Source: Lachnospiraceae bacterium
GTDB lineage: Bacteria > Bacillota > Clostridia > Lachnospirales > Lachnospiraceae
NCBI GenBank assembly: GCA_024699645.1
Contig: JAILPE010000037.1
Span: 1 to 36,251 of the forward strand
Length of the DNA: 36,251 bases
Direction: 5' to 3'
The notes under the pieces are model-generated. The model was not told where the DNA came from. It saw only the letters and a list, made by a program, of their open reading frames with translations, and made no database searches. Positions 7,826 through 30,717 of the stretch are shown piece after piece; position 1 is the stretch's first letter, and each line of letters starts with the position of its first letter. The position numbers and the translations under genes are program-made.

Positions 7826-9766
7826 TTATTTTACAGAACCGATAGATGCGGCTGTTACAGACCAATTGGAGGATGCCTCAAACTGAAGTGTAGCGCCCCA
7901 CTGGGTTGTGTCATCACCAAGGATTTCTGCAATATCTTCAAATGTTACCTGGCAATGTTTGCCGTCGAACTTAGAGTAGCCCTGTCCGGAGCCGTCATAA
8001 TCGCCGACACCTACACGGGTCCATCCCTTAGCTGCGCCGGGGAATACAAGCCAAAGCTCGCCGGTCTCGGAGGTGTACTCTACATCGATTGCGGAACCGG
8101 GAACAAGTGCTGCTATCTGATCTGCTGTAAGATCAACGCCTGCCTGAGCCCATGCACCTGCAGATGCGGTTGCGCCAAGATCGAGATGGCTGTTGGTTGC
8201 AACGAAGGAATCGCCCTTACCTACGCGGATACCGTAAACTTCCCATTCTCCGTCAGACTCGCACTGCATTGTCGAACCCCATGTAGATACGTCTTCGCCG
8301 CAGTACTTGGCAAGATCTTCGTATGTTACATATGCCTTGCTGCCGTCACAGATTGCAAAGCCCTGTCCGGAGCCGTCTGCGTTACCTACGCCGACACGCA
8401 TCCAGCCTGCCTGTGCTTCGTTCATAACGAGCCACATATTTCCTGTTTCAGACTTGTAGCTGATTTCTACTACAGAACCGGGAACAAGTGCTGCGATGAT
8501 TTCCTCGGGCATTGTATATCCTGCCTGAGCCCATGCACCGGCCTTAGTCTGATAGCCTTCGAAGTTAACTGCATGTGTAAGAGCATAAGCGGGAGCCTTC
8601 TGTCCGACCTTAACGCCGGTAACTGCCCAATCTGTATCAGACTCGCACTGGATCTGGCTGCCCCATGTTGAGACATCATCGCCGCAGATAGCTGCGATCT
8701 GCTCGAATGTTACCTGTGCGATATTCTTCTTACCGTTTACATATGCATATTCCTGACCGGAACCGTCTGCATCACCGACGCCGACGCGCTTCCAGCCTGC
8801 TGCGGACTCGTTCATAACGATCCACATATTTCCTGACTCTGACTTATACTCGATCTCGATTACGGAACCGGGTACAAGTGCTTCCTTAACTGCATCTGTG
8901 AATGCTACACCTGCCTGTGCCCAAGCACCTGCCGATACTGAATCATAGCCTTCCCAGTTAACCACATTTGTAAGAGCAAAGAGGTTGCTGCGATCGTTTA
9001 CAGCTGCAAAACCTGCGGGATTGCCGAACTCTGCTGCGCTGTTTGCCTCGATCGTTGCGCCGTTACCGTCAAGGAATGCAATGTTGTCAATCAGAAGGTT
9101 TGAAGGTGTTGTCTTTGAATTATCGGTTTCCTTTGAAAGAACGATGTAGTTCTCGCCTGTTCCGATAAAGCCTGCCTTGGTCACATCAAACTTAGCGGTC
9201 TTGGGATTTGAGGTCTCAATATATACAGACCACTCGTTAGCCTTGTATTCCTTGTTGTCTTCACCTGCCATGCAGTAGAGACGTCCGCTTGTAGAAGCAA
9301 ACTTATCTGCATTCTCGGTTCCGAGATCGATACGGATCTCCTTTACGTCTGCAAGCTTATCCCCAAGCATAGCTGAGAGGTTGAATGCCACGAACATGTT
9401 CTTGCCGTCGACATTTGTTGCCTTAAGTGCTTTGGAGCCGTTAAAATCTACCACTTCAAGTGTGGAATTATCTGCTCCGCCGCGTCCGGTATCAACTGCT
9501 GCGAAAGCGAAATTTCCGTCTTCAAAGTCGATACTGGGAGTAACTGCCGGTTCCGGTGTAACTACCGGTAACGGTGTTTCCGTAACTGCCGGTGCCGTAG
9601 TTTTGTCCTCTGTGTCTACGCTCGGCGTAGTTTCTGCCGGTGACGGTGTCTCTGTGCTTACAGGATCAGCACCCTGCTTTTCCTCAGAACTGCCTGAGCA
9701 AGCGACGAGAGAAAATACCATCATGGCACATACCAGAACTAATGTTGCCAATTTTGTTTTCTTCAC
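7826..9766 (-). CDS. Surface lipoprotein with N-terminal beta-sandwich and three tandem ~128-residue modules (putative glycan-binding)
   Basis: 646 residues. It has a lipoprotein signal with lipobox L-V-A-C (Cys23), then a Thr/Pro/Glu-rich linker (residues ~30-78) with T-P-E-P-type repeats, then a beta-rich domain (~79-250) that resembles a galactose-binding-like fold. Three repeats follow at about 264-389, 394-516 and 521-646. Each repeat carries A-G-A-W-A-Q-A-G, L-V-P-G-S, an M/L-W-hydrophobic strand, G-W-x-R-V-G-V-G, D-G-S-G-Q and W-G. The conserved Trp residues suggest stacking on sugar rings. I do not recognise the repeat family. No catalytic motif is visible. It lies between permease and binding-protein genes, so a role in capturing glycan at the cell surface is inferred. 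GAGGAGG precedes the ATG. Confidence 0.85.
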   Translation of the reverse strand: MKKTKLATLVLVCAMMVFSLVACSGSSEEKQGADPVSTETPSPAETTPSVDTEDKTTAPAVTETPLPVVTPEPAVTPSIDFEDGNFAFAAVDTGRGGADNSTLEVVDFNGSKALKATNVDGKNMFVAFNLSAMLGDKLADVKEIRIDLGTENADKFASTSGRLYCMAGEDNKEYKANEWSVYIETSNPKTAKFDVTKAGFIGTGENYIVLSKETDNSKTTPSNLLIDNIAFLDGNGATIEANSAAEFGNPAGFAAVNDRSNLFALTNVVNWEGYDSVSAGAWAQAGVAFTDAVKEALVPGSVIEIEYKSESGNMWIVMNESAAGWKRVGVGDADGSGQEYAYVNGKKNIAQVTFEQIAAICGDDVSTWGSQIQCESDTDWAVTGVKVGQKAPAYALTHAVNFEGYQTKAGAWAQAGYTMPEEIIAALVPGSVVEISYKSETGNMWLVMNEAQAGWMRVGVGNADGSGQGFAICDGSKAYVTYEDLAKYCGEDVSTWGSTMQCESDGEWEVYGIRVGKGDSFVATNSHLDLGATASAGAWAQAGVDLTADQIAALVPGSAIDVEYTSETGELWLVFPGAAKGWTRVGVGDYDGSGQGYSKFDGKHCQVTFEDIAEILGDDTTQWGATLQFEASSNWSVTAASIGSVK

Positions 9767-9857: not shown

Positions 9858-10904
9858 TTATCCGACGATACCCGATCGTTCCACGCCTTCAATGAACTGC
9901 TTCTGCAAAACGACATAGATTACGACGAGCGGCAGCATAACGAGCACGATACCCGCATCCATGTAAAGCTGCAGAATGTTCGGGTCATAGATCTTATATA
10001 CATTTCCGACCGTACTCGCGAGCGTAGCAACTCTTTTGCTGAGCAGCGTTGAATCGCTGATGTTGAAGAGCTTCGCGTAAAAAGTATCATTGTACTGCCA
10101 TACGAGTGAAAAAATGGCCACTGTGATGGCAGACGGGATCGCGTTTCTGAGCATGATCCTGAAGTAGGTGTACCATACTCCGCATCCATCCACATAAGCC
10201 GCTTCCTCGATCTCCTTGGGAAGTCCGCGGAAGAACTGGTTAAAGATGTAGATATAAAGACCTGACCTGAGTCCGCAGCCAAAGAATGTCATTATGTACA
10301 TCGGCCAGACCGTTCCGAGCAGGTTCGGGCTGCTTCCCATTATCAGTCCGAAGATGCCGAAAACATCGAAGTTTGCAAATGTCATATAGAGCGGAAGCAT
10401 GATCGTATGTGTAGGGATGACGATCATAACCACAACGCAGGCAAAGAGCACCTTCTTAAACGGGAAATTATATCTCGCAAAGCCGTAACCTACCATTGAG
10501 CACATCAACACCTGAAGGACCATAAGCGTTAATGAGTAGATGATCGTAGAGAGAGCCGTCGATGAGTAGTTCAGCGTCTCAAATGCGATCTCATACCTCT
10601 CTGTCGTGGGCGACTGAGGGATCATATAAACCATCGTGTTGTAGTTATCCGCATCCGAGAAGAACGACCTTGAGATGATGCCGAGTACCGGCCCTATGAT
10701 CACATAGGCTACGCCGATAAGGATCACCCAGCGTCCGAGCCCGAGCAAAAATCCCTTGATATCGTCTATGATCCTGCTCTTTGTGTTCTTATCGATTTTG
10801 ATGAAACGGAACCCTTTCGGATTTACGGCAACAAGATCTGCATCCGCCGATTTCTTCTTTGGAGCAATTTTCTTAGCTTCCTCTGCAGCGTTATCCATTC
10901 CCAT
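9858..10904 (-). CDS. Carbohydrate ABC transporter permease, MalG/AraQ type (importer B)
   Basis: About 348 residues from the ATG at 10904. A GTG six bases further upstream is also in frame but overlaps the perfect AGGAGG, so the ATG is preferred. A long charged N-terminal cytoplasmic extension (about 45 residues, Lys/Ala-rich) precedes six predicted membrane segments. The EAA loop that contacts the ATPase is present as E-E-A-A-Y-V-D-G, about 80-90 residues from the C-terminus. It forms a heterodimer with the permease immediately upstream. No ATPase gene is in the window; as in many CUT1 systems of Firmicutes a shared MsmX/MsmK-type ATPase encoded elsewhere is expected. Confidence 0.92.
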   Translation of the reverse strand: MGMDNAAEEAKKIAPKKKSADADLVAVNPKGFRFIKIDKNTKSRIIDDIKGFLLGLGRWVILIGVAYVIIGPVLGIISRSFFSDADNYNTMVYMIPQSPTTERYEIAFETLNYSSTALSTIIYSLTLMVLQVLMCSMVGYGFARYNFPFKKVLFACVVVMIVIPTHTIMLPLYMTFANFDVFGIFGLIMGSSPNLLGTVWPMYIMTFFGCGLRSGLYIYIFNQFFRGLPKEIEEAAYVDGCGVWYTYFRIMLRNAIPSAITVAIFSLVWQYNDTFYAKLFNISDSTLLSKRVATLASTVGNVYKIYDPNILQLYMDAGIVLVMLPLVVIYVVLQKQFIEGVERSGIVG

Positions 10905-10919
10905 GATCACCTCCTCCCG

Positions 10920-11843
10920 TTAGTTATAGTAGAACGTTCGTTTTTGTATGAACCGGACAACGATCGCAAGTATCGCACAGGTGATCAACGTGGATACAAG
11001 CGAGAAAGTTGAACTGAGTCCGTAATTTTTCTCTGAAAACGCAGTATTGTATGCCAGTGTTACGACACTCGAATTTACGAAGCTGTCGACTACCGTGTAA
11101 ACCACAACGGTTATGATATGCGGCATGACCATCGGGAACGTAACCTTCCAGAATGTCTCATATGCCGTGGCACCCTCTATCTTTGCAACTTCATACATTG
11201 AACCCGGGATCGACTGCAGTGCCGCGATAAATATGATTATCTGAACGCCCGAGGCATTGATGATACTGCTTATCCTGCCTACCGCACCGACAACATATTC
11301 AATGAGGCCGCTCGGAAGACCGAGGTTTGAAAACATCTGAATGTAGTACCCGACGCTTACTCCCGTGCTCGTCGCTTCGGAAACCTCGGCACCCGCAGAC
11401 GAAAGTCCGCCCACCATCATGCTCGCCGCAACGCCCATTGCATCGAGGATGGCCTCCGAATTCAGGATAACCGGCAGGAAGAAGATGGCACGCATCAAAG
11501 TACGTCCCTTAAACTTCTTATTCAGAAGCATTGCAAGCATCAGGCTGAAGAAGGTAATAAGGGGTACATCAATGAGCATGTCTCCGACCGATGTCGTAAG
11601 AACCTGCTTAAAAGTTCCATGCGCCCGGAACGCGTATATAAAATTATCAAGTCCGACAAAATCGAGAGTATAGCCTCCGCCCGGTGAAACCGTCAGTTCC
11701 GACAATGAAAACTGTACGGTCATGAAGAGGCTTCTCAGGTAGAACCACAGGAATCCGATCAGCCAGGGGACTACGAACAGGAATCCCTTCATGGAACGCT
11801 TACGGGTAAGGGTTAATTTAAATTTTTTCTTCTTTTTTCCCAT
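10920..11843 (-). CDS. Carbohydrate ABC transporter permease, MalF/UgpA type (importer B)
   Basis: 307 residues. A Lys/Arg-rich cytoplasmic N-terminus is followed by the first membrane segment (G-F-L-F-V-V-P-W-L-I-G-F-L-W-F) and five more. The EAA loop reads Y-E-V-A-K-I-E-G-A. The gene starts 1 bp after the DUF5696 stop, with GGAGGGTGAT right before the ATG, and is followed 15 bp later by its partner permease. The tight spacing links transport to DUF5696. The likely cargo is mannan-derived oligosaccharide, inferred only from the surrounding enzymes. Confidence 0.92.
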   Translation of the reverse strand: MGKKKKKFKLTLTRKRSMKGFLFVVPWLIGFLWFYLRSLFMTVQFSLSELTVSPGGGYTLDFVGLDNFIYAFRAHGTFKQVLTTSVGDMLIDVPLITFFSLMLAMLLNKKFKGRTLMRAIFFLPVILNSEAILDAMGVAASMMVGGLSSAGAEVSEATSTGVSVGYYIQMFSNLGLPSGLIEYVVGAVGRISSIINASGVQIIIFIAALQSIPGSMYEVAKIEGATAYETFWKVTFPMVMPHIITVVVYTVVDSFVNSSVVTLAYNTAFSEKNYGLSSTFSLVSTLITCAILAIVVRFIQKRTFYYN

Positions 11844-11844: not shown

Positions 11845-14484
11845 TCACCCTCCGATCGCGTAATTCTTGGGTCCGACCGTGATGCTGTCTACACTCACTG
11901 CGGTATCCGTATGGTTTACATAAATCCTGATTCCGTTACTGTAGGCAGTAACGCTCACTCCATCCGAAATCTGCTTATAATCCGTAATATACGCGCCGCT
12001 GACTTTGGAAAGTACCTCATTGGTCCTCCTCCAGATATCAACCGCCGATTCCTTCCAGCCGTCATATTCTGTCGAATAGAGCTTGTTCAGTCCGGTCATC
12101 TTCATCTTCGTCGCCGCTTCCTTCGTGAGGATAAAGTGCGGCGATGCGCCGTTCTCAATAAGTGAAAGGATGATTTCGTCCGTATCTGTCGTATTTCCCA
12201 GATTGACTGCGTTTCCCGAGTAATCTATACAGCCATGTATCAACATCTCGTAGAAGGGAACCGCTGCGTCAACGGCCGGATAAGCGTTGTCTGTGAGCGG
12301 AGCGTTCACGATGTCGTCAGCATAAGCGAAGGAATAATCGTTACCGCTGTTGAACATCATGTTCTTTCCGGTATCCTTCATCTTTTGAAGCTGCGACTTT
12401 ACGACCTGAAGCGCCTGCTCACGGTCGATCACGTTTGTACGACGCTTATCTGAATGAAGCTCATTTCCCAGATCTCTCAGAGAAATACCGGAAACGTCAA
12501 AATCCGTGATCTTATCCACAAAGCTCTCCGTATAACGTACGAGGAACTTCGGCGAGACAAGGTAGTAAATATTCTCATCATAGCCGAGACTTGAGGTCTG
12601 CCTGAGCGTGGCGGGGGAAACCTCGCCGAACTCTCCTATATATCCGGTTCCGTAATAACGTGAGGTTTCGTTCGATGCGGAATATCTGCTGCTCACTTCG
12701 GAAACCTTCTGGAATGCACAATCAACATAGAGCGTGCCGCCCATGGCCTTAAGCTCATTCGAAAGCTCTTCAAGATCCGATTTTCCTCCGAGCTTTCCGG
12801 GTACTTTTATCTTCCCGAGAGTATCGTGGTAATATCCTCCGCCGCTCCAACCTTGAAGGTTTACCACCTGGTTTGTCACTCCGGAATCCTTTAAGTCTTT
12901 TGCAATCTCTCCTGCCTCTTCGAAGGTAGTCATTGCGGTAAGCCCTCTGTACTGGGTTCCAAGGAAGTACTTCGTCTCCTCAACACCGCTGATCACATCA
13001 TAATAAAGCTTTATATCGCCCGTCTCCGACCCGGAAGCTTTAAGGCGCCCTTCCCTGATAAGACGGTCTCTGTAGTAGTTTGCCGCGCCCGCATAACCGT
13101 TATTATCCCCGGTAAGGATCGTATAACGCACGCAAAGCGGTGTATCGTAGAAATCTGTCTCAACGATGGGAAGCTTGGCTTCGCTTCCTGTAGTTCCGAA
13201 CATCGCGAGCGTATCATTTCCTCTTAAAGTGAATGTGGTATAAACGTTGTTATATTCGTTCACATCTCCGGCAACTCCGGCCGAAACATTGGCCAGGGAT
13301 GCGCCGGATTCGATGGTGGCAAGGATTCCCGAATTTTCACGGAATATGCCGAACAGCGGGAGCTTTGCGCTCGTTGTTTTCTCGCGGACCGTATAGTCTG
13401 CAACCATCGGGTCGATTCCGTATATATACTCGGAATAATCATTTCCGGAACGGGCGGTTCCCTTACCGTTGTTGAAGTTGATGATCGATCCTGAACCGTT
13501 CGGCACGAGTATATATCCTGTCTCTTCTTTTCCTGCCGCGCCGAAGAAATTGAGCATCTGGATATTATGGATCGCTCCTCCGCCGTTCTCTTCAACGCCT
13601 TTCATATAGACAGTCGCCTCAAGGTAGTCGTCCCTGACTGTATAATCGATCGGAACCTTGAAAGTGATCGGTACGGAGCCTTCGACATCCACTGCGGACA
13701 TCTCACGCTCGTAATCCTCTTTCGTCCATCCCGCTTTCGTAAAATACTCATTTAAGCGTCGAACCTGTGAAACACCCTTTTGGGTATTCTCAAGCATGAC
13801 CATCAGGTTCTCGTCTTCGTCACTCTGAACGAACTTCTTCCTCGAGAACTTTTCTGCCGCGCTGTCCATCTTCGAAAGAACTTCCTCGAGCACATCCTTG
13901 TTGATGTAGATCGGGACGATACCGGTTGCGGCAGTGGTGTCTCCGAAGGTGTAGACGATTCTCACACCGTTTTCGATCGACTGCGCCTCGATCTGTCCGA
14001 GCTGTGCGGCCTGCGTATAGGAATCGAATGTATTCTCCATACGCTGCGTGTTGAAATAATCCAGGATCAACTGGCTCTTTAAGTACGCCTTGTTCGTTGT
14101 GTTTGCGATCCCGTCTTCATCCGCTCCGGGAGGATTGGAATATATCGTTTCGCCGGTGCGCTTATCGTATACCGCAATATTGCCGGTATTTATCTGAACG
14201 TAGAGTTTAAGTGAAGTGCTTTCAGCCGCGAGAGTATAACCCTCTACCGAATTTTCGGAATCCGTTGCTGCCTTAAACTCGGTTCCTTCCTCCACCGTAT
14301 AGTCTGTCAGGTAATCCCTGTAATGATCATAAAAATTGTATCGGATCAGGTAATACACCAGATATGCCGCAATGACTGCCACCACTGCAAGAAGCAGGTA
14401 CCGGACCCATTTATGTTTTTTTGTTCGCTGTGTTTTGAGGTTCATTTCCTTCAGCGCTTTTTTCTGTTCTTTTGTCTGTCCCAT
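11845..14484 (-). CDS. DUF5696-type membrane-anchored extracellular protein (possible glycosidase-like barrel)
   Basis: 879 residues. A basic cytoplasmic N-terminus is followed by one membrane segment at about 26-46 and a large extracellular part, with no cleavage site, so it is a signal-anchored surface protein. I recognise it as the DUF5696 type that occurs in glycan-uptake clusters of Firmicutes; no function is established to my knowledge. Residues ~60-480 are beta-rich. Residues ~490-770 alternate strands and helices like a TIM barrel, with acidic residues at strand ends (V-D-C at ~587-589; R-D-L-G-N-E-L at ~670-676; N-S-G-N-D-Y at ~712-717). A small beta domain closes the protein. This layout recalls clan members such as GH101/GH129, but that is inference. 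AAGGAGG precedes the ATG. It lies in one tight cluster with YIP1 and NHL genes. Confidence 0.8.
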   Translation of the reverse strand: MGQTKEQKKALKEMNLKTQRTKKHKWVRYLLLAVVAVIAAYLVYYLIRYNFYDHYRDYLTDYTVEEGTEFKAATDSENSVEGYTLAAESTSLKLYVQINTGNIAVYDKRTGETIYSNPPGADEDGIANTTNKAYLKSQLILDYFNTQRMENTFDSYTQAAQLGQIEAQSIENGVRIVYTFGDTTAATGIVPIYINKDVLEEVLSKMDSAAEKFSRKKFVQSDEDENLMVMLENTQKGVSQVRRLNEYFTKAGWTKEDYEREMSAVDVEGSVPITFKVPIDYTVRDDYLEATVYMKGVEENGGGAIHNIQMLNFFGAAGKEETGYILVPNGSGSIINFNNGKGTARSGNDYSEYIYGIDPMVADYTVREKTTSAKLPLFGIFRENSGILATIESGASLANVSAGVAGDVNEYNNVYTTFTLRGNDTLAMFGTTGSEAKLPIVETDFYDTPLCVRYTILTGDNNGYAGAANYYRDRLIREGRLKASGSETGDIKLYYDVISGVEETKYFLGTQYRGLTAMTTFEEAGEIAKDLKDSGVTNQVVNLQGWSGGGYYHDTLGKIKVPGKLGGKSDLEELSNELKAMGGTLYVDCAFQKVSEVSSRYSASNETSRYYGTGYIGEFGEVSPATLRQTSSLGYDENIYYLVSPKFLVRYTESFVDKITDFDVSGISLRDLGNELHSDKRRTNVIDREQALQVVKSQLQKMKDTGKNMMFNSGNDYSFAYADDIVNAPLTDNAYPAVDAAVPFYEMLIHGCIDYSGNAVNLGNTTDTDEIILSLIENGASPHFILTKEAATKMKMTGLNKLYSTEYDGWKESAVDIWRRTNEVLSKVSGAYITDYKQISDGVSVTAYSNGIRIYVNHTDTAVSVDSITVGPKNYAIGG

Positions 14485-14496
14485 GCGCTGCCTCCT

Positions 14497-15129
14497 TTAT
14501 GCCCGGAAAAGCAGTTCCTGATATATGCTGTACAGGAAACTGTAAACCTGATTTATCAAATCCACGATGAGGAGGACTATGAATACTATGAGCAGCAGGG
14601 CTATTATTGTAAGGAAAAGCGTGATGATCGTTTTTCCCAAAGTGAAGTTATGTACCGTCATGATCCCAACAAGCATCATAAACAACGTGTATGCTATCCC
14701 GATCCCGCAGATCATGGTATAAAAAGCAGCTTCATCTTCGGAAACAAACCGGCTGAACACCGTTCCGATCAGGATACACACCGTCGCCGGCAATGTAGAA
14801 TACCCGATCGCTATCACAATGTCCTTTAACCTTCCTTTACCGTCCATAAGACAGGTGATCGACCAGTTGCTGACACAGAGCAGGAAGAAGAACAAAAGCA
14901 CCGTGATCAGTTCACTGATGGAATTTACTTCCCTCGGATCGATATCGTTTACGATAAAACCCGCCGATATACGGTTAACGGACCATGCCACCGAGAAAAG
15001 GATAACAAAGATCACGGCCACAACTACGGAGCCCCTGTCCCTGTGTCGGATCTCATAGAATCCGTCTGCAGGATGACTGACTGTATGTAGTGCATATTTC
15101 CATTTATCTTTCGATAACAGATTCTTCAT
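14497..15129 (-). CDS. YIP1-family multi-pass membrane protein
   Basis: 210 residues, with about five hydrophobic segments. The N-terminal cytoplasmic part has H-P-A-D-G-F-Y-E-I-R, a typical entry of bacterial YIP1-family proteins, and the Y-S-T-L-P motif in the central segment also fits. The bacterial role is unknown; eukaryotic YIP1 proteins act in membrane traffic. The ATG abuts the TAG of the NHL/TPR gene directly, with GGAGGGG inside that gene's end, which indicates translational coupling. DUF5696 follows 12 bp later. The arrangement suggests a membrane assembly or scaffold partner for the surface proteins. Confidence 0.82.
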   Translation of the reverse strand: MKNLLSKDKWKYALHTVSHPADGFYEIRHRDRGSVVVAVIFVILFSVAWSVNRISAGFIVNDIDPREVNSISELITVLLFFFLLCVSNWSITCLMDGKGRLKDIVIAIGYSTLPATVCILIGTVFSRFVSEDEAAFYTMICGIGIAYTLFMMLVGIMTVHNFTLGKTIITLFLTIIALLLIVFIVLLIVDLINQVYSFLYSIYQELLFRA

Positions 15130-16611
15130 CTACAGCAGCCCCTCCTCTCTTACGATTCCTTTTTTCCTACGCTTTATCTTCTTAAATACGATCCCGGCCG
15201 CGATCAAAGCGATCACCCCGGTCATTATCCATCCGAGATTGTCGGCAAGTATCTTGTTGCGATAACGCTTATAGGCAATGGAGTAATACTCCTTATTCAT
15301 TCCGAGCTCGAAATAATGCATGGCGTTCTCGTTGTCGCCCGCGGTTAGATAAGCTTTTCCGATACCGTTATTCGCCAGCTCGTTATTTTCATCCAGGCGC
15401 AGGACCTCATTCCATTTATCGATCGCCTGCTTTTCGTCTCCGTTGTATCTGAGTCCGACCGCGTCATTGATCAGGCTTCCGTAATTAGTCTCGCGGAACT
15501 TCATGATCACATTCCGCCCGGCGTCGAGAACAATGATCTCTTCACCATTCTGCTCTATCGCAACCGGCGTCTGAAATGTTCCGTCCTGTAACCCGATACC
15601 GCCGAATATATACAGAAGATTTCCTTCCTTGTCGTATGTGAAGATCCTTCCTCTCTTTCTGTCCAAAAGAGAATACATTCCCTTGTTCCTATACACTACG
15701 TCAACGATCTCCGACGGCCCGTTGTAATCGCCGTAGTTGCTGTAACGAATGTCGCCGCCGACGTTTTTGTTTTCACCCTTTTGGATAACGTCCTTACCTT
15801 GAGGATTGAGTCTTCGGACTGCCTGTTTTCCCTCGGAATCGATATTGGATGCGTAGATAAATCCTTCCGAATCGACATCGATCCCGGTAAACTCAGTCGG
15901 TATGTACAGCTGGGTGTTCGAGCGCTCCTCCTTGGAAGCGAACCGTCTCCAGAATTTCTCCCAAACGGAGATCTTAACCTCGATCGTTCCGAAATATCCC
16001 GAAAACGTTCCGTCTGCTTCAAATACAAGTATTCCTTCAAAGGCGCCCTTTGAGATCACGTAGATACGGTCCGCATAATCCACGGTAACCTTAATCGGTA
16101 TGAACGCGAAGTCATCTTCCAAAATCTCGGATTTCGGTTCTTTCACAACACGCTTATATTCACCCTGCGGTGTAAGCACCACAACCCGGGCATTGTTCGA
16201 ATCCGCCACAAAGAGCTCACCGTTCTCCGAAACGCACACGCCGTACGGAGCGCTGAACCGGTCTTCTTCACCGTCCACCGTAAAGGTATCGATGATCCGG
16301 TTCACTTTTTTCATTTGACTGTCGAGCACCACTATCCGGTTGTTGCCGGTATCCGCAACGTAAATCTCGCCTTCCGCCGATATACAGAAATCCCTTGGCT
16401 CCTTAAAGGCCGTCGTCCCGACATCCGTACCGCTCACACTCCCTTCCGGTGTATATGCGGCGGGAGTTCTTACGACATCCTCCCAATAGTTGTAGTTATA
16501 GGTATCGTACGGAACCTCCTGTGCTGCCCCTGCCGGTGTTACGGGCAATGCAGCCATGACCGACAGGACAAACACGCCAAGTATTCTCTTTAATCTTGTA
16601 GTCTTTCTCAT
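15130..16611 (-). CDS. Secreted NHL-repeat propeller with TPR and C-terminal membrane anchor
   Basis: 493 residues. The signal peptide ends about residue 29-30 (A-G-A-A). NHL-type blades follow from about 70 to 380, the clearest being those with V-A-D-T-G-N-N-R-I at 85-93 and V-A-D-S-N-N-A-R-V at 135-143. Around 390-440 a TPR-like helical pair is visible (N-N-G-I-G-K-A-Y-L, then A-M-H-Y-F-E-L-G). One membrane helix at ~458-476 and a basic tail (K-K-I-K-R-R-K-K-G) close the protein. The propeller therefore sits outside the cell, tethered to the membrane, where it could bind glycan or dock proteins. It starts 6 bp after the permease stop. No enzymatic motif is visible. Confidence 0.85.
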   Translation of the reverse strand: MRKTTRLKRILGVFVLSVMAALPVTPAGAAQEVPYDTYNYNYWEDVVRTPAAYTPEGSVSGTDVGTTAFKEPRDFCISAEGEIYVADTGNNRIVVLDSQMKKVNRIIDTFTVDGEEDRFSAPYGVCVSENGELFVADSNNARVVVLTPQGEYKRVVKEPKSEILEDDFAFIPIKVTVDYADRIYVISKGAFEGILVFEADGTFSGYFGTIEVKISVWEKFWRRFASKEERSNTQLYIPTEFTGIDVDSEGFIYASNIDSEGKQAVRRLNPQGKDVIQKGENKNVGGDIRYSNYGDYNGPSEIVDVVYRNKGMYSLLDRKRGRIFTYDKEGNLLYIFGGIGLQDGTFQTPVAIEQNGEEIIVLDAGRNVIMKFRETNYGSLINDAVGLRYNGDEKQAIDKWNEVLRLDENNELANNGIGKAYLTAGDNENAMHYFELGMNKEYYSIAYKRYRNKILADNLGWIMTGVIALIAAGIVFKKIKRRKKGIVREEGLL

Positions 16612-16617
16612 AATCCC

Positions 16618-17469
16618 TTACTCCTTTATGCCGGAGGTAGTCATGGTTTCCAGTACGTTGCTCTGGCAGGCCAGGAAGAAGAGTATCGGCACTGCCGCGA
16701 TTATAAACGTTACTGCCGCAGAGGCACCTGCTCTTGCCGTACCACCGGCGGCAATCTGCTGAAGTGCGAACTGAAGCGGTTTTAATTGTTCATCTCTCAG
16801 GAACATCGAACCCGTGTTGCCCCACATCTGCTGGAACTGGAAGATTGCCAGAGTCAGCCATGCCGGCTTTACATTCGGCATAACGATCGACCAGAATATT
16901 CTGTACTCGGAGGCCCCGTCGAGCCTTGCCGATTCCATAAGTGAGATGGGAAGCTGTTCCATAAACTGTTTCATCAGGTAAAGTCCCATTCCGTATTGCC
17001 ATGCCGGCAATATAAGCGCCAAATACGTATTGTTGATATGCAGCCAGCTGATGATCATGTAGTTCGGGATCTGCGTTACCGTCCACGAAAACATCATCGA
17101 AAGAACTACCATGTTAAAGAGTATCTTCTGCCCGGGAAATTTATGCTTTGCCAAAACATAAGCGGCAAGGGATGCCACTATAACATGTCCGAGGGTACCG
17201 AGACCCGTGATTATGACGGTGTTCATGATGTACCTGGAAAAAGGCACCCATGAATCACTCATGACATTAAACAGGTCGGTAAAGTTGTTCATCGTCGGAT
17301 TCTTGACGAAGATCGCCGGAGGATACTGGAATATCTCGTCGAGAGGCTTCAATGCATTGTTCACGATCATGACAAGCGGCAGAGACATGAATATACCGCT
17401 GATGATCATAATGGTGAACAGTATTCCGTTACCTGCAACGGAACGGTTGACTTTCCTCTGTCTTGCCAT
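16618..17469 (-). CDS. Carbohydrate ABC transporter permease, MalG/AraQ type (importer A)
   Basis: 283 residues, standard length for the family, with six predicted membrane segments. The EAA loop reads M-E-S-A-R-L-D-G-A about 90 residues from the C-terminus, and the C-terminal end T-S-G-I-K-E matches the usual G-x-K-G/E ending. It starts 2 bp after the stop of its partner permease. With that partner and the fused binding protein at 18500-21457 it forms a second importer distinct from the one at 9858-11843. Confidence 0.93.
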   Translation of the reverse strand: MARQRKVNRSVAGNGILFTIMIISGIFMSLPLVMIVNNALKPLDEIFQYPPAIFVKNPTMNNFTDLFNVMSDSWVPFSRYIMNTVIITGLGTLGHVIVASLAAYVLAKHKFPGQKILFNMVVLSMMFSWTVTQIPNYMIISWLHINNTYLALILPAWQYGMGLYLMKQFMEQLPISLMESARLDGASEYRIFWSIVMPNVKPAWLTLAIFQFQQMWGNTGSMFLRDEQLKPLQFALQQIAAGGTARAGASAAVTFIIAAVPILFFLACQSNVLETMTTSGIKE

Positions 17470-17471
17470 GG

Positions 17472-18476
17472 CTATTCACCTACCCTTCGAAGAAGTCTCT
17501 GTACCAATTTGTTTGTGCCGACCATAAGGAGGAAGAGCACAGTAGCAATCGCAGATGCATAACCCATATCAAATCTCGTCGAACCGTAATCAAGAAGGTG
17601 GGTAACGACTGTTGCTCCCGCATAGTTTACGGAAGGGTTACCTGCCAGCTGTATGGAAATATCAGCAACGGCAAAGGACTGAGTGATCTGCATTACCGCA
17701 CCGAACATAAGCTGAGGCTTCATTGCCGGAAGTGTTACAAACCAGAGCTCCTGCCAGCGGTTCTTTACACCGTCGATCGCTGCCGCTTCATAAAGTGTCT
17801 TGTCAACCGTCTGCAGACCTGCGATGAAACTGAGGAATCCGGTACCGAGTGACAACCACAACTGTACAGCGATAAGGCACGGGAGGATGAGGTTCGCATC
17901 CTGCATCCAAAGCTTCTGTTCATCGATAATACCGAGGTTCATCAGGATACCGTTCAAGTATCCGTAACGATCGGACGAAAGGATGAGCGACCATACCATA
18001 TAAGCGTTACCGCAAATGGAAGGCGCATAGAAAATGAGCGTCAGGAAAGTACGTACCTTCGGACGGAACTCATTTATGATCCATGCAAACAGGAGACAGA
18101 GCAGGTAACTGATCGGTCCCGTGACCACTGCAAAAATAAGAGTATTCTTCAATGAGATCATGAAGATATCATCATTGAGGAAAAGCTTTGTATAATTGGC
18201 CCAACCGTTGAACTTCGGCGCCTCAAGCATGTTGAAGTAGGTGAAGCTCAGACCCATGGACATAAGCACCGGAAGTACCGTAAAAAGGAAGAACAGGATG
18301 AAATACGGACTCATCATGATGTAACTTGTCTTACTCTTCTTAATTCGGTACCAAAGCGTCCTCTGTTTCCTTGCGATTTCATAGCTTGCAAGCGAATAAA
18401 CACCGGGGTTGCCGCTTACTTGACCGATATTCTTCTTATCGTTCTTTTTCTCCGGGCCGAATGAATTCGTAGGCAT
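17472..18476 (-). CDS. Carbohydrate ABC transporter permease, MalF/UgpA type (importer A)
   Basis: About 334 residues from the ATG at 18476, chosen because AAAGGAGG lies 9 bases before it. An in-frame ATG at 18503 overlaps the stop of the binding-protein gene (ATGA) and could also be used by coupling. A long cytoplasmic N-terminus with basic residues precedes the first membrane segment (Y-F-I-L-F-F-L-F-T-V-L-P-V-L). The EAA loop is Y-E-A-A-A-I-D-G-V. It is the partner of the permease just downstream. Confidence 0.92.
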   Translation of the reverse strand: MPTNSFGPEKKNDKKNIGQVSGNPGVYSLASYEIARKQRTLWYRIKKSKTSYIMMSPYFILFFLFTVLPVLMSMGLSFTYFNMLEAPKFNGWANYTKLFLNDDIFMISLKNTLIFAVVTGPISYLLCLLFAWIINEFRPKVRTFLTLIFYAPSICGNAYMVWSLILSSDRYGYLNGILMNLGIIDEQKLWMQDANLILPCLIAVQLWLSLGTGFLSFIAGLQTVDKTLYEAAAIDGVKNRWQELWFVTLPAMKPQLMFGAVMQITQSFAVADISIQLAGNPSVNYAGATVVTHLLDYGSTRFDMGYASAIATVLFLLMVGTNKLVQRLLRRVGE

Positions 18477-18499
18477 TACCGAGTTCCTCCTTTCCATGA

Positions 18500-21457
18500 T
18501 CATTCTTCTTCCACCGGCAAACCGAATTCAATTCGCTTATACCGGATCTCTTCGTTGATATAGAGCACCTTATCCATCAATTGCTCACGGGGTGAAGCCG
18601 TATCCGTTTCCGTGGTAACCGTATAAAATGCGTTATTTACATTTCGCCATGAGTAATATCCGCCGGGCACCTGAGGGATTCCCTTTACCCACTCAAATGC
18701 CTTTGCCAGGTTATGATAGGTGTCGACAGGCCAGGGAAGCATTTCAAAGGCCTCTTTATTCGCCGTCGCAACACGGGCCGCCGAGCCCATGAGGCTTTCC
18801 ATCTCTCTGTCGTAAAGTGCCTGTACATCGGCGCTTGTCCACCATTTAAGGAACTGCCAGCAAGCGTCGGGCTCTTTCGTATCGGCCATGATCATCGACG
18901 CGAGTCCCGTACATCCCACCGAATGGTCAACCGTTCCGTCTGCCTTCTTTGTTCCGGGAACCATCGTAAAGTCCCAAAGCCCTGCGATATCGGGAGCCGA
19001 TACCTCGAGGTTGTTGTACACGGTATAGTCCGCGATGATTATCGGGCACTCACCGGTACGGAAACGTTCCTCCACGGAAGTCGTTTTATCGAGACCGTAA
19101 TCGGTGTAAAATTCACAATACTGTTTGAATGTATTTACCGCGATATCGGAATCGAGAGCCGATGATATGCCGCCTTCGTTGTAATACTTTCCACCGTTCT
19201 GATACAGCATCATCGCGTATATCTGTTCACCCGGCAGCATACCGAATTCCATCTGGTTCTTTGCAAGCACCGACATGATGACCTGTACATCTTCCCATGT
19301 TTCCGGGATTGAGAGGCCAAGCTCCTCCAGAATATCTTTCCTGTAGAACATAACAGGGAAAGTCTGAGTCTCGGGGAGTGCATACAGAGCGCCGTTAAAG
19401 GAAAATGCGGTGATCGCGCTGTCGTAGAAGCGATTTGTCACTTCGTCCACATCGCTGAATCGGTTCAGATCAAGGACCGCATTACGAAGTCCGTAATTGA
19501 CGGGAGTATCGTTACCCGTATTCAGGACCGCTCCCGCAATACCGTTCGTATTTGCCACCTGGATCGCAACGTCGGGTCCTTCTCCGGCAAGCTCCGCTCT
19601 CAGGAGAGTGTTCATGTCGACCAGCTGAACATTGACATTAACGCCATAAACATTGGTAAATGATTCATCTATGAGGGAGCGGATGACATTTGCCTGATCA
19701 CGTCCGGTACCGATCCAAAGCGTGATATTCTTGTTGTCCTCACTGTTCTCCCCCGTTGATCCGAGCGAGTTGTAATCGATCACAAATGAATTGAAAAGGC
19801 GGGCCGCCTCATTCTTGGCGTCACTGAACAGATTATCGCCTTCAACCTCGAGCTCCTTCGAATCGGATGTTATAAATATCCTGTCGATCTGCAGCGGCTG
19901 GCTGATAACCTGGGTTATCCATGTACCGCATGCACGTACATTCTTTTTATATGTGCTGATAACACGAACAAAGTGCTCCACGTCATTGATGAGATAATCG
20001 AGCTGATCACGCATCGTAATGAGCACGGACTCTTTGTCGGATGTAGTCCCGACAGCACTTCGCAGCGAATAGATCGCGTCATTCAACTCGTCTCTTACTT
20101 CGGTGATCTCGCTTTCAATATCCGGGAGAGCCGCTTCAATCTGATAATCACGGTAAGTATCCGGTGATACGCCTATGATACGGATGACCTTTCGGTAGAT
20201 CGCATTGAGCTTGCTGACACTATCCTGTACCTGTGCGATAACTTCGGAGAAATCGCCGAGCACGACCTCCATCCTAAGTGTATGGACACCTTGGGTCATA
20301 TAGAACTTATAAGGATTCTCTTCCTTATCCCGAAGTGTCTCGAGACGCCAGTCGGATTCATAATAGAAACCGTAGTTCTCCATTTCCCTGAAAGGAACCT
20401 CGCCGTCAACGGTGATCTTTCTTGAAACATAGATTCCTCTCATGAAGTTCTGTTTATCAAAAAGCGATATCTCATAATATCCGTCCTCGGGTACTTCGAA
20501 CTGCCACTCTACCCACTGTCCGGCTTTGTCCCAACTGATCCCGCCGATGGTATTGTTGAGAAGATATCTTGAGCTGTGTTCCGATACCGCCGCACACGAC
20601 TGATCCTGCTTGGGATAAAGAGTCTGTGAAGAGGTCTTTCTTGCATCCTCACCCTCAACAGCGATTAAAACTCCGGCGGTGTCCTTCACACCTTCCTTGT
20701 CCCATGCGGCTTTCTGTTCCGCATAAGAGAGTTCCTGCGCCCTGTTCGATAAGGTAAGGCCTCCGAGAAGCATGGGCTCGCGGCGTGACTTTATGGTAAG
20801 AGTGTGCTCTCCCGTTGTAAGATAGAAACTTAAGGGAGTCGTGATATAACCGTTGTTGTCATAAAGATATGACGATATCCATTCAGGTATCTCTATAGAT
20901 GTGGGCTTCATGTCATTCCCCTGATTATCCTTCTTCCAGGTGACATGGGTTTTTCCGCTGTCAAAGACATCCTTTGCGACATCTGTTGTCCATATGCGTG
21001 AGAACTGTATGATCCCAAGCTCGGTATAAGGCTGCTCTCCGTCAAGGAAGAACGATCTCTGGATCTCGGAATTCTTGCCTTCTACGGGATAGTAATCAAG
21101 AGAAAGCTCGTATAAGCCGGCCTTCGCTACCGAAAAGCTGTAAGTGATCTCTCCGTTTTCCCCGGTGAGCACGCTGTCGCCTTCATAACCTTCAAAATTG
21201 CTCCTTATCTCGGGCTTTGTTTCTATTCCGTCTTCGGTATATGAGGAATAATCCGAAGCATCGATCTTTATCGCTTCATTGGGGCGTGTATTGTCGGGAA
21301 CTTCGGTGAGATATCTTCCGTAATCGGTGCTGTACATCATGTCAGCAACTCCGGGAACCACCGTGTCCTTCGAAAATACGGATCTGAGCACAAAAAGCAG
21401 CACGATAGCAAGCAGTACCGCGCAGTAAATGATTATTTTCCGTACCTTTTGTGACAT
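18500..21457 (-). CDS. Membrane-anchored solute-binding protein fused to two jelly-roll modules
   Basis: 985 residues, about twice the size of a normal binding protein. One N-terminal membrane segment (~8-27) has no lipobox Cys, so it is probably an uncleaved anchor. Two beta-sandwich modules follow, ~60-240 and ~263-400. The second has V-E-W-Q-F-E-V-P-E-D-G-Y-Y-E-I, typical of CBM6/CBM35-like domains. A helical spacer (~401-510), rich in Asp/Glu and Leu, resembles a coiled coil. The family 1 solute-binding domain fills ~576-985, with P-E-T-W-E-D-V and a Trp-rich C-terminal lobe (W-Q-F-L-K-W-W). It could hold glycan and hand it to importer A. GGAGAGGGAG precedes the ATG. The stop overlaps the next ORF's first ATG by four bases. 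Confidence 0.87.
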   Translation of the reverse strand: MSQKVRKIIIYCAVLLAIVLLFVLRSVFSKDTVVPGVADMMYSTDYGRYLTEVPDNTRPNEAIKIDASDYSSYTEDGIETKPEIRSNFEGYEGDSVLTGENGEITYSFSVAKAGLYELSLDYYPVEGKNSEIQRSFFLDGEQPYTELGIIQFSRIWTTDVAKDVFDSGKTHVTWKKDNQGNDMKPTSIEIPEWISSYLYDNNGYITTPLSFYLTTGEHTLTIKSRREPMLLGGLTLSNRAQELSYAEQKAAWDKEGVKDTAGVLIAVEGEDARKTSSQTLYPKQDQSCAAVSEHSSRYLLNNTIGGISWDKAGQWVEWQFEVPEDGYYEISLFDKQNFMRGIYVSRKITVDGEVPFREMENYGFYYESDWRLETLRDKEENPYKFYMTQGVHTLRMEVVLGDFSEVIAQVQDSVSKLNAIYRKVIRIIGVSPDTYRDYQIEAALPDIESEITEVRDELNDAIYSLRSAVGTTSDKESVLITMRDQLDYLINDVEHFVRVISTYKKNVRACGTWITQVISQPLQIDRIFITSDSKELEVEGDNLFSDAKNEAARLFNSFVIDYNSLGSTGENSEDNKNITLWIGTGRDQANVIRSLIDESFTNVYGVNVNVQLVDMNTLLRAELAGEGPDVAIQVANTNGIAGAVLNTGNDTPVNYGLRNAVLDLNRFSDVDEVTNRFYDSAITAFSFNGALYALPETQTFPVMFYRKDILEELGLSIPETWEDVQVIMSVLAKNQMEFGMLPGEQIYAMMLYQNGGKYYNEGGISSALDSDIAVNTFKQYCEFYTDYGLDKTTSVEERFRTGECPIIIADYTVYNNLEVSAPDIAGLWDFTMVPGTKKADGTVDHSVGCTGLASMIMADTKEPDACWQFLKWWTSADVQALYDREMESLMGSAARVATANKEAFEMLPWPVDTYHNLAKAFEWVKGIPQVPGGYYSWRNVNNAFYTVTTETDTASPREQLMDKVLYINEEIRYKRIEFGLPVEEE

Positions 21458-21500
21458 ATTTTCTCCCTCTCCGAATTACATTCTATGATCGATATTGTCG

Positions 21501-22190
21501 TTATTCATAAAGCCATAAAGCCTCGCTGCCCTCATCAGGCTTATCCGGCATATACTTCCTAAGTACCTTTTCCATCAAAAGACTTGACAGATAACACAGG
21601 ATCGCCGGAAGTATAAACAAACTCGGGATCGGCAATATGTAAAAAGCCGTATATACCAATCCTCCGAGAGCGGCAACGTGCAGCAGTGTGACGAAGAAAT
21701 GCTGCCCGCTGACGATAAAAGCCATCATTACGGCCCGTCCCACCGATACTCTGAATCTCGAGATGATCGGGAAGAGATAAACGGTAACGGACGTGACGAT
21801 GATCGTAAAGATCACGAGGACTTTCGCCGCAAATGTGGAAAGTGATATCTCCACATGCGCAACATAACGGTTAAAAAGAAACATCAATACCGCGCAGACA
21901 ATGAGCGGTATCGTAGCAATGATGCCCCTTTTCAGGAGCCTTCGGAAATTCCCGAAATAACTTCGTACAGGATATCCGATCCCGTGCCTTACGCTTTTTA
22001 CCACAGTGTGGTAAAGCGCTGCCGATGCGGCCCCTATCGTTATGACAGGCAGACATGTCAGGATCCACATAATGCTGAGGAGGATCAATTCACCTGCCTT
22101 GGTGAGGAATGTGACGACCGGTCCGTCCACATCGAAGAGGATATGTCGGATGGCGTTGTCTCTTAGTCTGTTTTTACTTTGTTCTGCCAT
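21501..22190 (-). CDS. DUF624/YesL-family membrane protein
   Basis: 229 residues with about five hydrophobic segments. The first reads L-I-L-L-S-I-M-W-I-L-T-C-L-P-V-I-T-I-G-A-A, the hallmark of DUF624/YesL proteins, which sit beside carbohydrate ABC transporter genes in Firmicutes; their function is unknown. It is the first gene after the promoter at 22352-22380 and lies 43 bp upstream of the fused binding protein. The AAAGGGA before the ATG is a weak ribosome binding site. Confidence 0.85.
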   Translation of the reverse strand: MAEQSKNRLRDNAIRHILFDVDGPVVTFLTKAGELILLSIMWILTCLPVITIGAASAALYHTVVKSVRHGIGYPVRSYFGNFRRLLKRGIIATIPLIVCAVLMFLFNRYVAHVEISLSTFAAKVLVIFTIIVTSVTVYLFPIISRFRVSVGRAVMMAFIVSGQHFFVTLLHVAALGGLVYTAFYILPIPSLFILPAILCYLSSLLMEKVLRKYMPDKPDEGSEALWLYE

Positions 22191-22385: not shown

Positions 22386-22403
22386 TTTGCTAAATTTAGC
22401 AAA
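22386..22403. promoter_or_regulatory. 18-bp perfect palindrome, candidate operator
   Basis: TTTGCTAAATTTAGCAAA is a perfect inverted repeat, five bases upstream of the candidate -35. Its size fits a dimeric helix-turn-helix regulator such as the LacI protein encoded just upstream. It lacks the central CG usual for LacI operators, so the match to that protein is inference. Confidence 0.5.
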
Positions 22404-22573: not shown

Positions 22574-23596
22574 TCAATTATCGATTGCTTCGCCTGTGTT
22601 ATGTATACCGGTCTCACGCTCAACAAGCCAGCCGTAGGATATCACAGTTCCGTAGCGGTAATCCGGGTTTACGCAGTGCTGCTCGAGGATGTTGAGCAGC
22701 TGGCCGATCATCTCTTCGATATTGACATGGTAGGTCGTAAGCCGTACATCATCCATTTTGTTATCGGAATAATCATCATAACCGACAACCGCAACATCTT
22801 CGGGTACGCTATAGCCCTCCTTGCGCAGCTTCCGGATGAGTCGATAGGCAGTATGGTCACATGTGCAGACAAATCCGTCCGGAAGCTTTTCGGGAAGCTT
22901 CAGATCAATGTCCTGGCCCTTTTCATTACGGTCGGATATTACATATTCCGCGTTAAAGTCGAGCTGGTTTGCGATCATATATTTACGGTAACCGACAAAA
23001 CGGTCAAGGTTACTTCTGGTCGACAGATAATTTCCGACGAATCCGACTGTCTTGCAACCGGCGCGAACAAGGTGACGGGTGAGAAGATATCCGCCGTTGA
23101 CGTTGTCACTGATCACCGCATCCATATCAAAGTCCTCGTTCTCGAAATCGAAGAGGATACAACCGATTCCTGTCCTGACAACGGAGCGGAGATAAGCGTT
23201 TTTGATCTCGCCGATCACTATGATCTGGTCGATCGATTTAAGTGAAAGAAGCTTCGGCAGCTCGCCCTTTTCCTCGTCCTCAACACGGACAGCCTCAAAG
23301 ATCGCGACAAAGTTACGTCTGGTCAATTCCAAAAGTATCTGCTGATAAACCTTCTGGTAGAAGGAATTCACGCCGATAAAGCGCTCGGAAATGATGATCG
23401 CGACATTTTTACTCTCACTGCGTTCAGGGTTCTTTTTAAAGATATAACCCAGCTCATGCGCTCTCTCTACGATTTCCTGGCGAAGCTGCTCCCCAACGCC
23501 GTCTTTGCCCGCAAGCGCCTTTGACACCGTCACGATACTGACATCAAATTCCTGCGCGATGTCCTTCATGGTAACCTTTTTTTCTGCCTTTTCCAA
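22574..23596 (-). CDS. LacI-family transcriptional regulator of the mannan locus
   Basis: 340 residues from a TTG start, chosen because AAAGGTGGG lies about 9 bases before it and the helix-turn-helix begins right after. The DNA-binding part reads V-T-M-K-D-I-A-Q-E-F-D-V-S, then T-V-S-K-A-L-A-G, followed by a LacI/GalR-type sugar-binding domain with V-I-S-D-N-V-N-G-G and V-A-V-V-G-Y-D-D-Y. It lies 20 bp after the GH5 gene in the same operon and directly before the regulatory region of the transporter operon. It is the likely sensor of an intracellular mannan breakdown product and may control both promoters; effector and operator are not known. Confidence 0.92.
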   Translation of the reverse strand: MEKAEKKVTMKDIAQEFDVSIVTVSKALAGKDGVGEQLRQEIVERAHELGYIFKKNPERSESKNVAIIISERFIGVNSFYQKVYQQILLELTRRNFVAIFEAVRVEDEEKGELPKLLSLKSIDQIIVIGEIKNAYLRSVVRTGIGCILFDFENEDFDMDAVISDNVNGGYLLTRHLVRAGCKTVGFVGNYLSTRSNLDRFVGYRKYMIANQLDFNAEYVISDRNEKGQDIDLKLPEKLPDGFVCTCDHTAYRLIRKLRKEGYSVPEDVAVVGYDDYSDNKMDDVRLTTYHVNIEEMIGQLLNILEQHCVNPDYRYGTVISYGWLVERETGIHNTGEAIDN

Positions 23597-28654: not shown

Positions 28655-28972
28655 TTACAAACCCCTGATAATATTCAGATAATCCTGTCGTTGATCGACA
28701 ACGGCATATACCGTAACCTGTCTTTTTTCATCGTCCGCTTTGTAAAACACATAGTCTTTTTCAAGTATCAAAACCAGGTATCCCTGTCTCTTTAATATGG
28801 AATATTTGGGTTCAATCCCGGCATACGGATTACTGCCCAAAGTCATAATGGCTTTTTCAAGATATTCAAGCCTTTTTAATGCCGTGTCTGTTCCAAAATT
28901 TTCTGCTATATAAAGAATGATCCTTCGGAGTAGAGCATCCGCGGTATCTGTTCGAAGAACTTTGTACTTCAA
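28655..28972 (-). CDS. RelE/ParE-family toxin
   Basis: 105 residues, the typical size. The pattern fits the ParE/RelE fold: an N-terminal strand (K-Y-K-V-L-R-T), two helices ending in A-I-M-T-L-G-S-N-P-Y-A-G, then strands with Y-L-V-L-I-L-E-K-D-Y-V-F-Y-K and V-T-V-Y-A-V-V-D-Q-R-Q-D-Y. The start overlaps the antitoxin stop by four bases (ATGA), the classic coupled arrangement. Whether it cleaves mRNA (RelE-like) or attacks gyrase (ParE-like) cannot be decided from the sequence. Confidence 0.88.
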   Translation of the reverse strand: MKYKVLRTDTADALLRRIILYIAENFGTDTALKRLEYLEKAIMTLGSNPYAGIEPKYSILKRQGYLVLILEKDYVFYKADDEKRQVTVYAVVDQRQDYLNIIRGL

Positions 28973-29262
28973 ATTTTCCCCTCCGGTCCGCCTTTTAAAA
29001 TACTTCTCAGATCGTCAAATGTTTCCTTTACGGGGCCCACTCTTCCGTATTTAACATCTTCATCTGCTTCCGCAAGTATTTCCAAAAGCTCAATGCGAGC
29101 TTTCATTCTTTTGTATTCTTCGTAACTTAAAGATACAGTATCGCCTCTTCCGTTAACCGTAATAATAACTGCCTCGTTGTCCTCGCGACACTGTCTGGAT
29201 ATTTCATTGTAATGATTTCGCAGATCTGCGGACGGTCTGATCACTTCCCTTTGTGTCAGCAT
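28969..29262 (-). CDS. Phd/YefM-family antitoxin
   Basis: About 97 residues. An ATG at 29268 is in frame, but GGAGG is only two bases before it and eight bases before the ATG at 29262, so the latter is preferred. The Phd/YefM DNA-binding half shows R-P-S-A-D-L-R-N-H-Y-N-E and V-I-I-T-V-N-G-R-G-D-T-V-S-L-S-Y-E-E-Y, a clear hallmark. The C-terminal half would wrap the toxin. A promoter and an imperfect palindrome lie just upstream, consistent with autoregulation. Confidence 0.9.
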   Translation of the reverse strand: MLTQREVIRPSADLRNHYNEISRQCREDNEAVIITVNGRGDTVSLSYEEYKRMKARIELLEILAEADEDVKYGRVGPVKETFDDLRSILKGGPEGKI

Positions 29263-29291
29263 AGCCATTACCTCCGACGTGATATATGTAT

Positions 29292-30415: not shown

Positions 30416-30445
30416 ATTATGCCATCCTTTCATTAAATACGATAA

Positions 30446-30464: not shown

Positions 30465-30469
30465 GCAGT

Positions 30470-30498: not shown

Positions 30499-30522
30499 GT
30501 ACCGCTAACCAAGTATTGCAGT

Positions 30523-30678: not shown

Positions 30679-30717
30679 AGCTTTCAAGTATTTATTCGGA
30701 AAGGAAGTCATAAATAT

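Follow-up and report, generated by a model that had tools for sequence, protein, structure and literature searches.

An eight-gene unit of Bacillota with two permease pairs, a tethered solute-binding protein and a GH129-related DUF5696 protein, read as a candidate glycan importer

We analyzed a stretch of 36,251 nucleotides (the window), contig JAILPE010000037.1 of the 2.13-Mb draft genome of a Lachnospiraceae bacterium (GCA_024699645.1), in which eight genes on the minus strand between positions 9858 and 21457 are packed into a core unit: a solute-binding protein (SBP) fusion, permeases 1F and 1G, an NHL-TPR protein, a YIP1-family protein, a DUF5696 protein, and permeases 2F and 2G. The tightly packed eight genes are the true unit, larger and more sharply bounded than an earlier note on this DNA had drawn it. 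On the strength of gene order, co-occurrence and predicted structure, we lean towards reading them as one extracellular-facing system for glycan capture and double CUT1 import. The phylum-wide gene unit is real and apparently undescribed, with a mechanism that we infer. For Gram-positive bacteria of gut, rumen and soil, much less has been described than for the Bacteroidota Sus systems of how large, decorated fragments of plant polysaccharide reach ABC importers. The conserved eight-gene unit, present in 41 of the 398 Bacillota genomes sampled and including three uncharacterized accessory proteins, provides a defined and testable candidate.

In the order given above, consecutive core genes are separated by -4, 2, 6, 0, 12, 1 and 9 bp, which includes the abutment of the NHL stop and the YIP1 start (0 bp) that the earlier note had described. 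The flanking gaps are wider, at 43 bp between the upstream YesL gene and the SBP fusion and 91 bp between the core and the next gene. Other loci are packed in the same way: the gap from NHL to YIP1 has a median of -8 bp (108 of 110 within -150 to 60 bp), and that from DUF5696 to 2F a median of -4 bp (129 of 132 within this range). An open reading frame (ORF) check and Pfam likewise placed all of the genes that the note had named on the minus strand where it had put them, with the families and spacings it had described. Its interval of 11845-22190, said to hold two permease pairs, holds pair 1, but pair 2 (9858-11843) lies outside, beginning 1 bp past DUF5696, and belongs to the unit.

To follow the unit beyond the window we read 134 loci: the window itself, 20 from relatives, 33 from across the phylum and 80 named. 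The 20 and the 33 (full-length) neighbourhoods were chosen by hand for long contigs and spread, while the 80 named loci are the best 80 of 550 relatives, among which the nearest are rumen Lachnospiraceae (Lachnospiraceae metagenome-assembled genome RUG.326, 85% identity). Gene order was counted in the 109 loci with at least 8 kb upstream and at least 2.6 kb downstream, the other 25 being dropped for short flanks; three pairs among the 109 are >98% identical. NHL, YIP1 and 2F stand beside DUF5696 in all 109, and 2G in 107 (it is missing in L095 and L110). The SBP fusion lies upstream in 101 loci, and counting both sides raises this to 106; it is missing from L048 and sits downstream in L094, L095, L099, L103 and L104. 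When one locus is taken per 50%-identity group (n = 35), NHL, YIP1 and 2F are found in 35, 2G in 33 and the SBP fusion in 32. Judging by the relocations, there may be two sub-units, SBP fusion-1F-1G and NHL-YIP1-DUF5696-2F-2G. In 14 of the 109 loci, NHL and YIP1 form a single ORF of ∼670-840 aa with YIP1 after the NHL part, and a fusion is also present in Paenibacillus cellulosilyticus, judged by the length of its annotated YIP1 protein. Because the two are naturally fused in some lineages, NHL and YIP1 would be expected to work as one unit.

Co-occurrence was analyzed in 398 drawn Bacillota genomes, the same set for each of the three profiles, with thresholds of E 1e-90 for DUF5696, 1e-20 for NHL and 1e-10 for the N-terminus of the SBP fusion. 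Strong DUF5696 matches occur in 41 genomes from 18 GTDB families, and the NHL and SBP-fusion profiles both match all 41, the fusion of G157 being a contig-end fragment. Two further genomes exceed the Pfam DUF5696 cut-off by weak barrel matches to proteins that are GH129 and DUF6259. Fisher p values of 6e-54 (NHL) and 3e-48 (SBP fusion) ignore shared descent and come from profiles derived from such loci. The earlier note had expected its five families to co-occur beyond chance, which is what we see for NHL, the SBP fusion and DUF5696, with conserved order; its proposal of one single machine is likewise consistent with the conserved order, the genome co-occurrence and the natural NHL-YIP1 fusion. 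Spread by plasmids was rejected as the main explanation, as a match was found in only 2 of 72,556 plasmid records, both typed non-mobilizable.

The hallmarks of CUT1 importers, MalF/MalG-type permease pairs and an SBP, are present. In its predicted model (pLDDT 83.9) the SBP fusion starts with an N-terminal transmembrane (TM) helix, followed by two CBM35/CBM6-like jelly rolls (residues ∼60-240 and 262-400), a helical part (403-518) and the solute-binding domain (∼523-977), with boundaries taken from predicted secondary structure. Among 17 SBP-fusion N-termini, 10 match CBM35 and two match CBM6 at E 0.1. The second jelly roll has PDB relatives that include cycloisomaltooligosaccharide glucanotransferase (E 2.5e-8), and the fold matches of the solute-binding domain are oligosaccharide-binding proteins, including mannotriose-bound 4r9g at rank 8. 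A tree of 113 permeases, drawn from 30 loci, recovers 1F (100/100), 1G (99/94) and, less firmly, 2G (86/92) as groups and places the 2F rows together beside 1F, not resolved as one clade; three misplaced rows are gene-picking errors in which an overlapping first gene was skipped. As the tree places them, each of the four permease positions holds its own lineage. There is no ATPase gene in the window. Of 24 genomes of the genus, 20 encode a MalK-type ATPase (OB_MalK), several of them showing a single strong match, and in P. cellulosilyticus a ugpC gene lies directly upstream of the SBP fusion; we infer that a shared MsmX-type ATPase serves the module.

The DUF5696 protein was modeled with AlphaFold2 (mean pLDDT 89.9, pTM 0.85), and its top Foldseek matches are GH129 (5opq, E 2.6e-32, target TM-score 0.69), then GH101, GH36 and GH31, with the GH129-like fold spanning the whole protein. 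A profile of 27 diverse DUF5696 sequences reaches ZgGH129 at E 5.9e-17 and NagBb at 2.1e-8, a mannan-type profile reaches NagBb at E 0.0026 only, and hhalign against a four-sequence GH129 set returned a probability of 99.0 (E 2.9e-18), with 94.5% in a further run. The Pfam GH129 and GH101 models have no match to the protein at E 0.01, and the DUF5696 model alone matches. From the profile searches and the predicted fold, DUF5696 is a distant relative of GH129/GH101, as the earlier note had guessed for its barrel. The shared barrel also explains the weak Pfam DUF5696 matches in other genomes, where all seven proteins scanned were GH129/GH101, DUF6259 or GH13 proteins. Two DUF6259 proteins (L116 2302-4290, L115 2634-4769) show weak barrel similarity to DUF5696 and GH101/GH129, and this family probably belongs to the same superfamily. 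A hydrophobic N-terminal segment is present in 126 of 134 DUF5696 proteins, and the L110 protein carries a lipobox-like LSGC. The GH129 model found nothing in 199 Bacillota genomes; since GH129-type genes exist elsewhere in the phylum, this search either lacked sensitivity or drew on genomes without them. One such gene, in L113 (3914-5797), encodes a close NagBb-type homologue (PDB 5wzn, E 2.6e-253). The GH101 model matched four of 249 genomes, two over the cut-off, and a GH129 search among plasmids gave nothing informative.

The earlier note had suggested that DUF5696 trims the captured glycan, and the corresponding alternative to our reading is a catalytically active DUF5696 that would represent a new glycoside hydrolase family close to GH129/GH101, perhaps using non-canonical residues. 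We placed the catalytic positions through the NagBb-like protein of L113 and a MAFFT alignment and counted residues there in 42 representatives at <50% identity, taking D435 of NagBb to be the nucleophile and E478 the acid/base. The acid/base aligns with N712, a position that is mostly Asn or Ser in DUF5696 and is acidic in only 10 of the 42 representatives and 16 of 134 sequences (9 Glu, 7 Asp). MAFFT, with a gap, pairs the nucleophile Asp with D671, which speaks for an enzyme, whereas an ungapped reading pairs it with R670, and the position is acidic in 23 of the 42 representatives under the 671 register or in 8 under the 670 register. Because the acid/base position is so rarely acidic and the nucleophile position varies, trimming appears unlikely, and a canonical GH129/GH101 enzyme was rejected on the same grounds. 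The residues conserved across the 42 representatives are W546 (39), R688 (38), Y717 (37), D679 (36), D739 (36) and N715 (35), a set more suggestive of a binding cleft than of the active site of a GH129 enzyme. An active enzyme is nonetheless favoured by the GH129-like fold over the entire protein, by the placement of D679 and D739 in predicted loops after barrel strands, and by the mannan-type set, in which D588 is kept in 63 and R670, D671 and D679 in all of 65 sequences. Of the acidic residues at 588, 671 and 675 that the note had singled out, the first two hold up within this set while the wider family does not conserve them, and at 675 just 20 of the 65 sequences have Glu. Taken with the missing Pfam GH129 and GH101 matches, these counts make an active hydrolase unlikely in our estimation, although activity could persist within the mannan-type clade, where both D671 and R670 are invariant. 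By these alignments, DUF5696 is probably a GH129-derived, non-catalytic subunit.

Under the reading of a single capture and import system, the carbohydrate-binding modules (CBMs) would keep partially degraded polysaccharide bound to the cell surface while secreted enzymes cut it, and DUF5696 would bind or position the chain rather than cutting. NHL-TPR and YIP1 could act as a scaffold tying receptors to permeases, with both permease pairs driven by a shared MalK/MsmX-type ATPase encoded outside the window. The cargo in the window would be a beta-mannan oligosaccharide, passed once imported to GH130, GH36, the epimerase-like protein and PMI. Several observations weigh against this reading, which argues from gene order and co-occurrence to contacts between proteins. 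The hidden Markov models (HMMs) were built iteratively from these same loci, which are related by descent, and among the 357 genomes lacking a strong DUF5696 match, NHL occurs in two and the SBP fusion in eight (2 strong). No OB_MalK match came from the genome that holds the window (a draft of 93% completeness) or from three others of the genus. Nor need glycan cargo be universal: two modules are adjoined by giant surface proteins, and the flanks of the P. cellulosilyticus plasmid module (L213 3534-25157) hold no glycoside hydrolase, with a ugpC ATPase ahead and several LLM-class flavin oxidoreductases behind, which suggests a non-glycan or modified sugar cargo there. Finally, the halves can separate, as the SBP fusion and pair 1 are absent from the 20-kb loci of L087 and L092.

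This last point also bears on the possibility that two ordinary CUT1 importers are merely travelling together, the accessory proteins having separate jobs in envelope sensing, assembly or quality control. In its favour, a downstream position of the SBP fusion and pair 1 is seen in 5 of the 27 phylum-wide loci, L087 and L092 lack both in the locus, and the permeases of the two pairs fall into different groups. We nevertheless regard this as rather improbable: both halves were present in 41 of 41 genomes, and throughout the 109 flanked loci NHL, YIP1, DUF5696 and 2F form an unbroken run whose gaps mostly overlap or abut. The module could instead be a sensor, in which the NHL and DUF5696 ectodomains read the glycan, YIP1 passes the signal on and transport is secondary. 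A histidine kinase is encoded close by in the window (27539-28630), and on pNP243 of Butyrivibrio fibrisolvens a two-component pair is found upstream, but a Pfam scan found no signalling domain in NHL, YIP1 or DUF5696 and the genes are embedded in a permease operon, so that we give a sensor very little credence.

YesL, which the earlier note had counted as a member of the module, is not a core gene. Of 109 loci having the SBP fusion upstream, YesL stands before it in 39, and in none of the 44 that belong to the phylum-wide or Paenibacillus/Cohnella sets, as seen with an HMM that was seeded from the window's YesL and that divergent DUF624 proteins may escape; on these counts core membership was ruled out. 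Its match to NCBIfam MusI_fam (NF052431; E 3.5e-23, 82.5 bits) is below the 160-bit cut-off. Upstream of YesL, a perfect palindrome could be a local operator, with a near-copy at equal distance in L037 only (4 mismatches); 5 of 100 shuffles also produced a match with ≤3 mismatches. A LacI operator as a conserved feature of the module was rejected, since among 102 loci only the window (0) and L037 (4) have it within 4 mismatches.

Features of the window, with the evidence for each assignment
Feature	Coordinates	Strand	Basis
Second solute-binding protein, frequent neighbour	6313..7761	-	domain scan
Membrane-anchored protein with three CBM65 matches; frequent Lachnospiraceae neighbour, outside core	7826..9766	-	domain scan
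MalG-type permease 2G	9858..10910	-	Pfam, NCBIfam, tree
MalF-type permease 2F	10920..11843	-	Pfam, NCBIfam, tree
DUF5696 protein, 879 aa: N-terminal TM helix, GH129-like beta-sandwich, TIM barrel, C-terminal beta domain	11845..14484	-	Pfam, predicted structure
YIP1-family membrane protein, 5 hydrophobic segments	14497..15129	-	Pfam Yip1
NHL propeller + TPR protein; N-terminal signal-like segment, C-terminal TM segment	15130..16611	-	Pfam NHL; TPR match sub-threshold
MalG-type permease 1G	16618..17469	-	Pfam BPD_transp_1, NCBIfam, tree
MalF-type permease 1F	17472..18503	-	Pfam BPD_transp_1, NCBIfam, tree
SBP fusion, 985 aa, SBP_bac_1 in C-terminal part	18500..21457	-	Pfam, predicted structure
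YesL/MusI-like DUF624 membrane protein, 229 aa; lineage-specific accessory outside core	21501..22190	-	Pfam DUF624, NCBIfam
Perfect 18-bp palindrome TTTGCTAAATTTAGCAAA, candidate LacI-type operator between LacI-type gene and YesL	22386..22403	.	sequence search
LacI-family regulator	22574..23596	-	Pfam

Around the core, the window encodes a glycoside hydrolase (GH) of family GH5, PMI, a GlcNAc-2-epimerase-family protein, GH130, GH36, a CE2-type esterase, a SASA esterase, the CBM65 protein and the second SBP, which would be the partner of permease pair 2. By the established roles of these neighbouring families, it is a beta-mannan locus. We scanned flanking proteins, after removal of genes matching the window's own enzymes, for non-redundant picks from Paenibacillus/Cohnella (53 of 71), Lachnospiraceae-dominated (56 of 71) and other Bacillota (57 of 82) loci. 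The Lachnospiraceae-dominated flanks contain GH26 in 18, with CBM35 carried by 16, and those of Paenibacillus/Cohnella contain GH26 in 12, a GH2 mannosidase-like enzyme in 4, GH9 in 3 and GH113 in 2, while those of other Bacillota contain GH10 in 3, GH42 in 2, GH3 in 2, GH26 in 1 and many unrelated genes. Some enzymes accompany single loci, namely GH43 (L096), GH106 (L087), GH35/42 (L090), GH3 (L093 and L094) and an apiosidase-like protein (L092), and the B. fibrisolvens pNP243 module has GH43 alongside. The mannan setting described by the earlier note is thus real in the window and recurs in Lachnospiraceae and Paenibacillus, but the module is not a mannan device: other lineages pair it with GH43, GH106, GH35/42, GH3 or no glycoside hydrolase, and a mannan-only function was rejected. 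The importer is constant and the enzymes vary with lineage.

The window's own genome carries a second complete module (L032, C32:69500-89499), accompanied by a GH5-type enzyme and by an SBP of its own. In one lineage, surface-domain proteins follow permease 2F (L109 5368-10203, 1611 aa; L110 2480-8074, 1864 aa). Elsewhere in the window, a ParE-type toxin and a YefM/Phd-type antitoxin (28655-29268) separate the mannan genes from a class II fructose-bisphosphate aldolase, which lies directly upstream of the mannan locus, at 29447-36250, together with a plus-strand pyrroline-5-carboxylate reductase-like gene, rpoC and the end of rpoB.

The genes of the module are already named individually by NCBI annotation. 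Literature searches, whose coverage excludes subscription papers and preprints, found no paper on DUF5696 and no mention of the set in connection with YIP1, NHL repeats, mannan, ABC transporters, Paenibacillus or DUF624, in agreement with the earlier note, which knew of no described function for it. By term, the main texts of two beta-mannan papers contain no DUF, NHL, YIP1 or YesL. DUF5696 is likely to be a case in which a bacterial transporter has recruited a glycosidase fold as a subunit.

Compared with known systems, DUF5696 shares with GH129 (NagBb, ZgGH129) and GH101 enzymes the N-terminal sandwich, the TIM barrel, the C-terminal beta domain and detectable sequence homology. It differs from them in its membrane anchor, its N-terminal extension, an acid/base that is not conserved, a variable nucleophile position and its place inside an ABC-importer operon. 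The module as a whole resembles CUT1 importers such as MalEFG with its shared MsmX/MalK ATPase, having MalF/MalG-type permeases, SBP_bac_1 receptors and a locus lacking an ATPase, but it has two distinct permease pairs, a receptor fused to CBM-like domains and three extra conserved membrane proteins. The Corynebacterium maltose importer MusEFGK2I, in which MusI is reportedly required for maltose uptake, also sets a DUF624/MusI-type protein next to a CUT1 importer, although here the DUF624 gene is present in a minority of loci and its MusI match falls under the NCBIfam cut-off. The mannan-utilization loci of Roseburia intestinalis combine a mannanase, an SBP, two permeases, GH130, an epimerase and esterases (PMC6385246); in the main text of that paper, supplements aside, DUF, NHL, YIP1 and YesL are absent as terms. 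The SLC3 heavy chains 4F2hc and rBAT consist of one TM helix and a glycosidase-fold ectodomain serving an animal amino-acid transporter (PMC8537225), and DUF5696, with its single TM anchor and its glycosidase-fold ectodomain lacking a conserved catalytic pair, may work in a similar way. The likeness is one of analogy, as the SLC3 fold is of the GH13 rather than the GH129 lineage and its transporter is secondary rather than ABC. More speculatively, the module could be a Gram-positive counterpart of Sus-type systems: one surface complex in which two different CUT1 pairs, a tethered, CBM-carrying receptor and NHL-TPR/YIP1 as scaffold are joined by a pseudo-glycosidase of GH129 descent, which delivers chains to the permeases much as SLC3 heavy chains support their transporters, with surrounding enzymes that vary with the polysaccharide.

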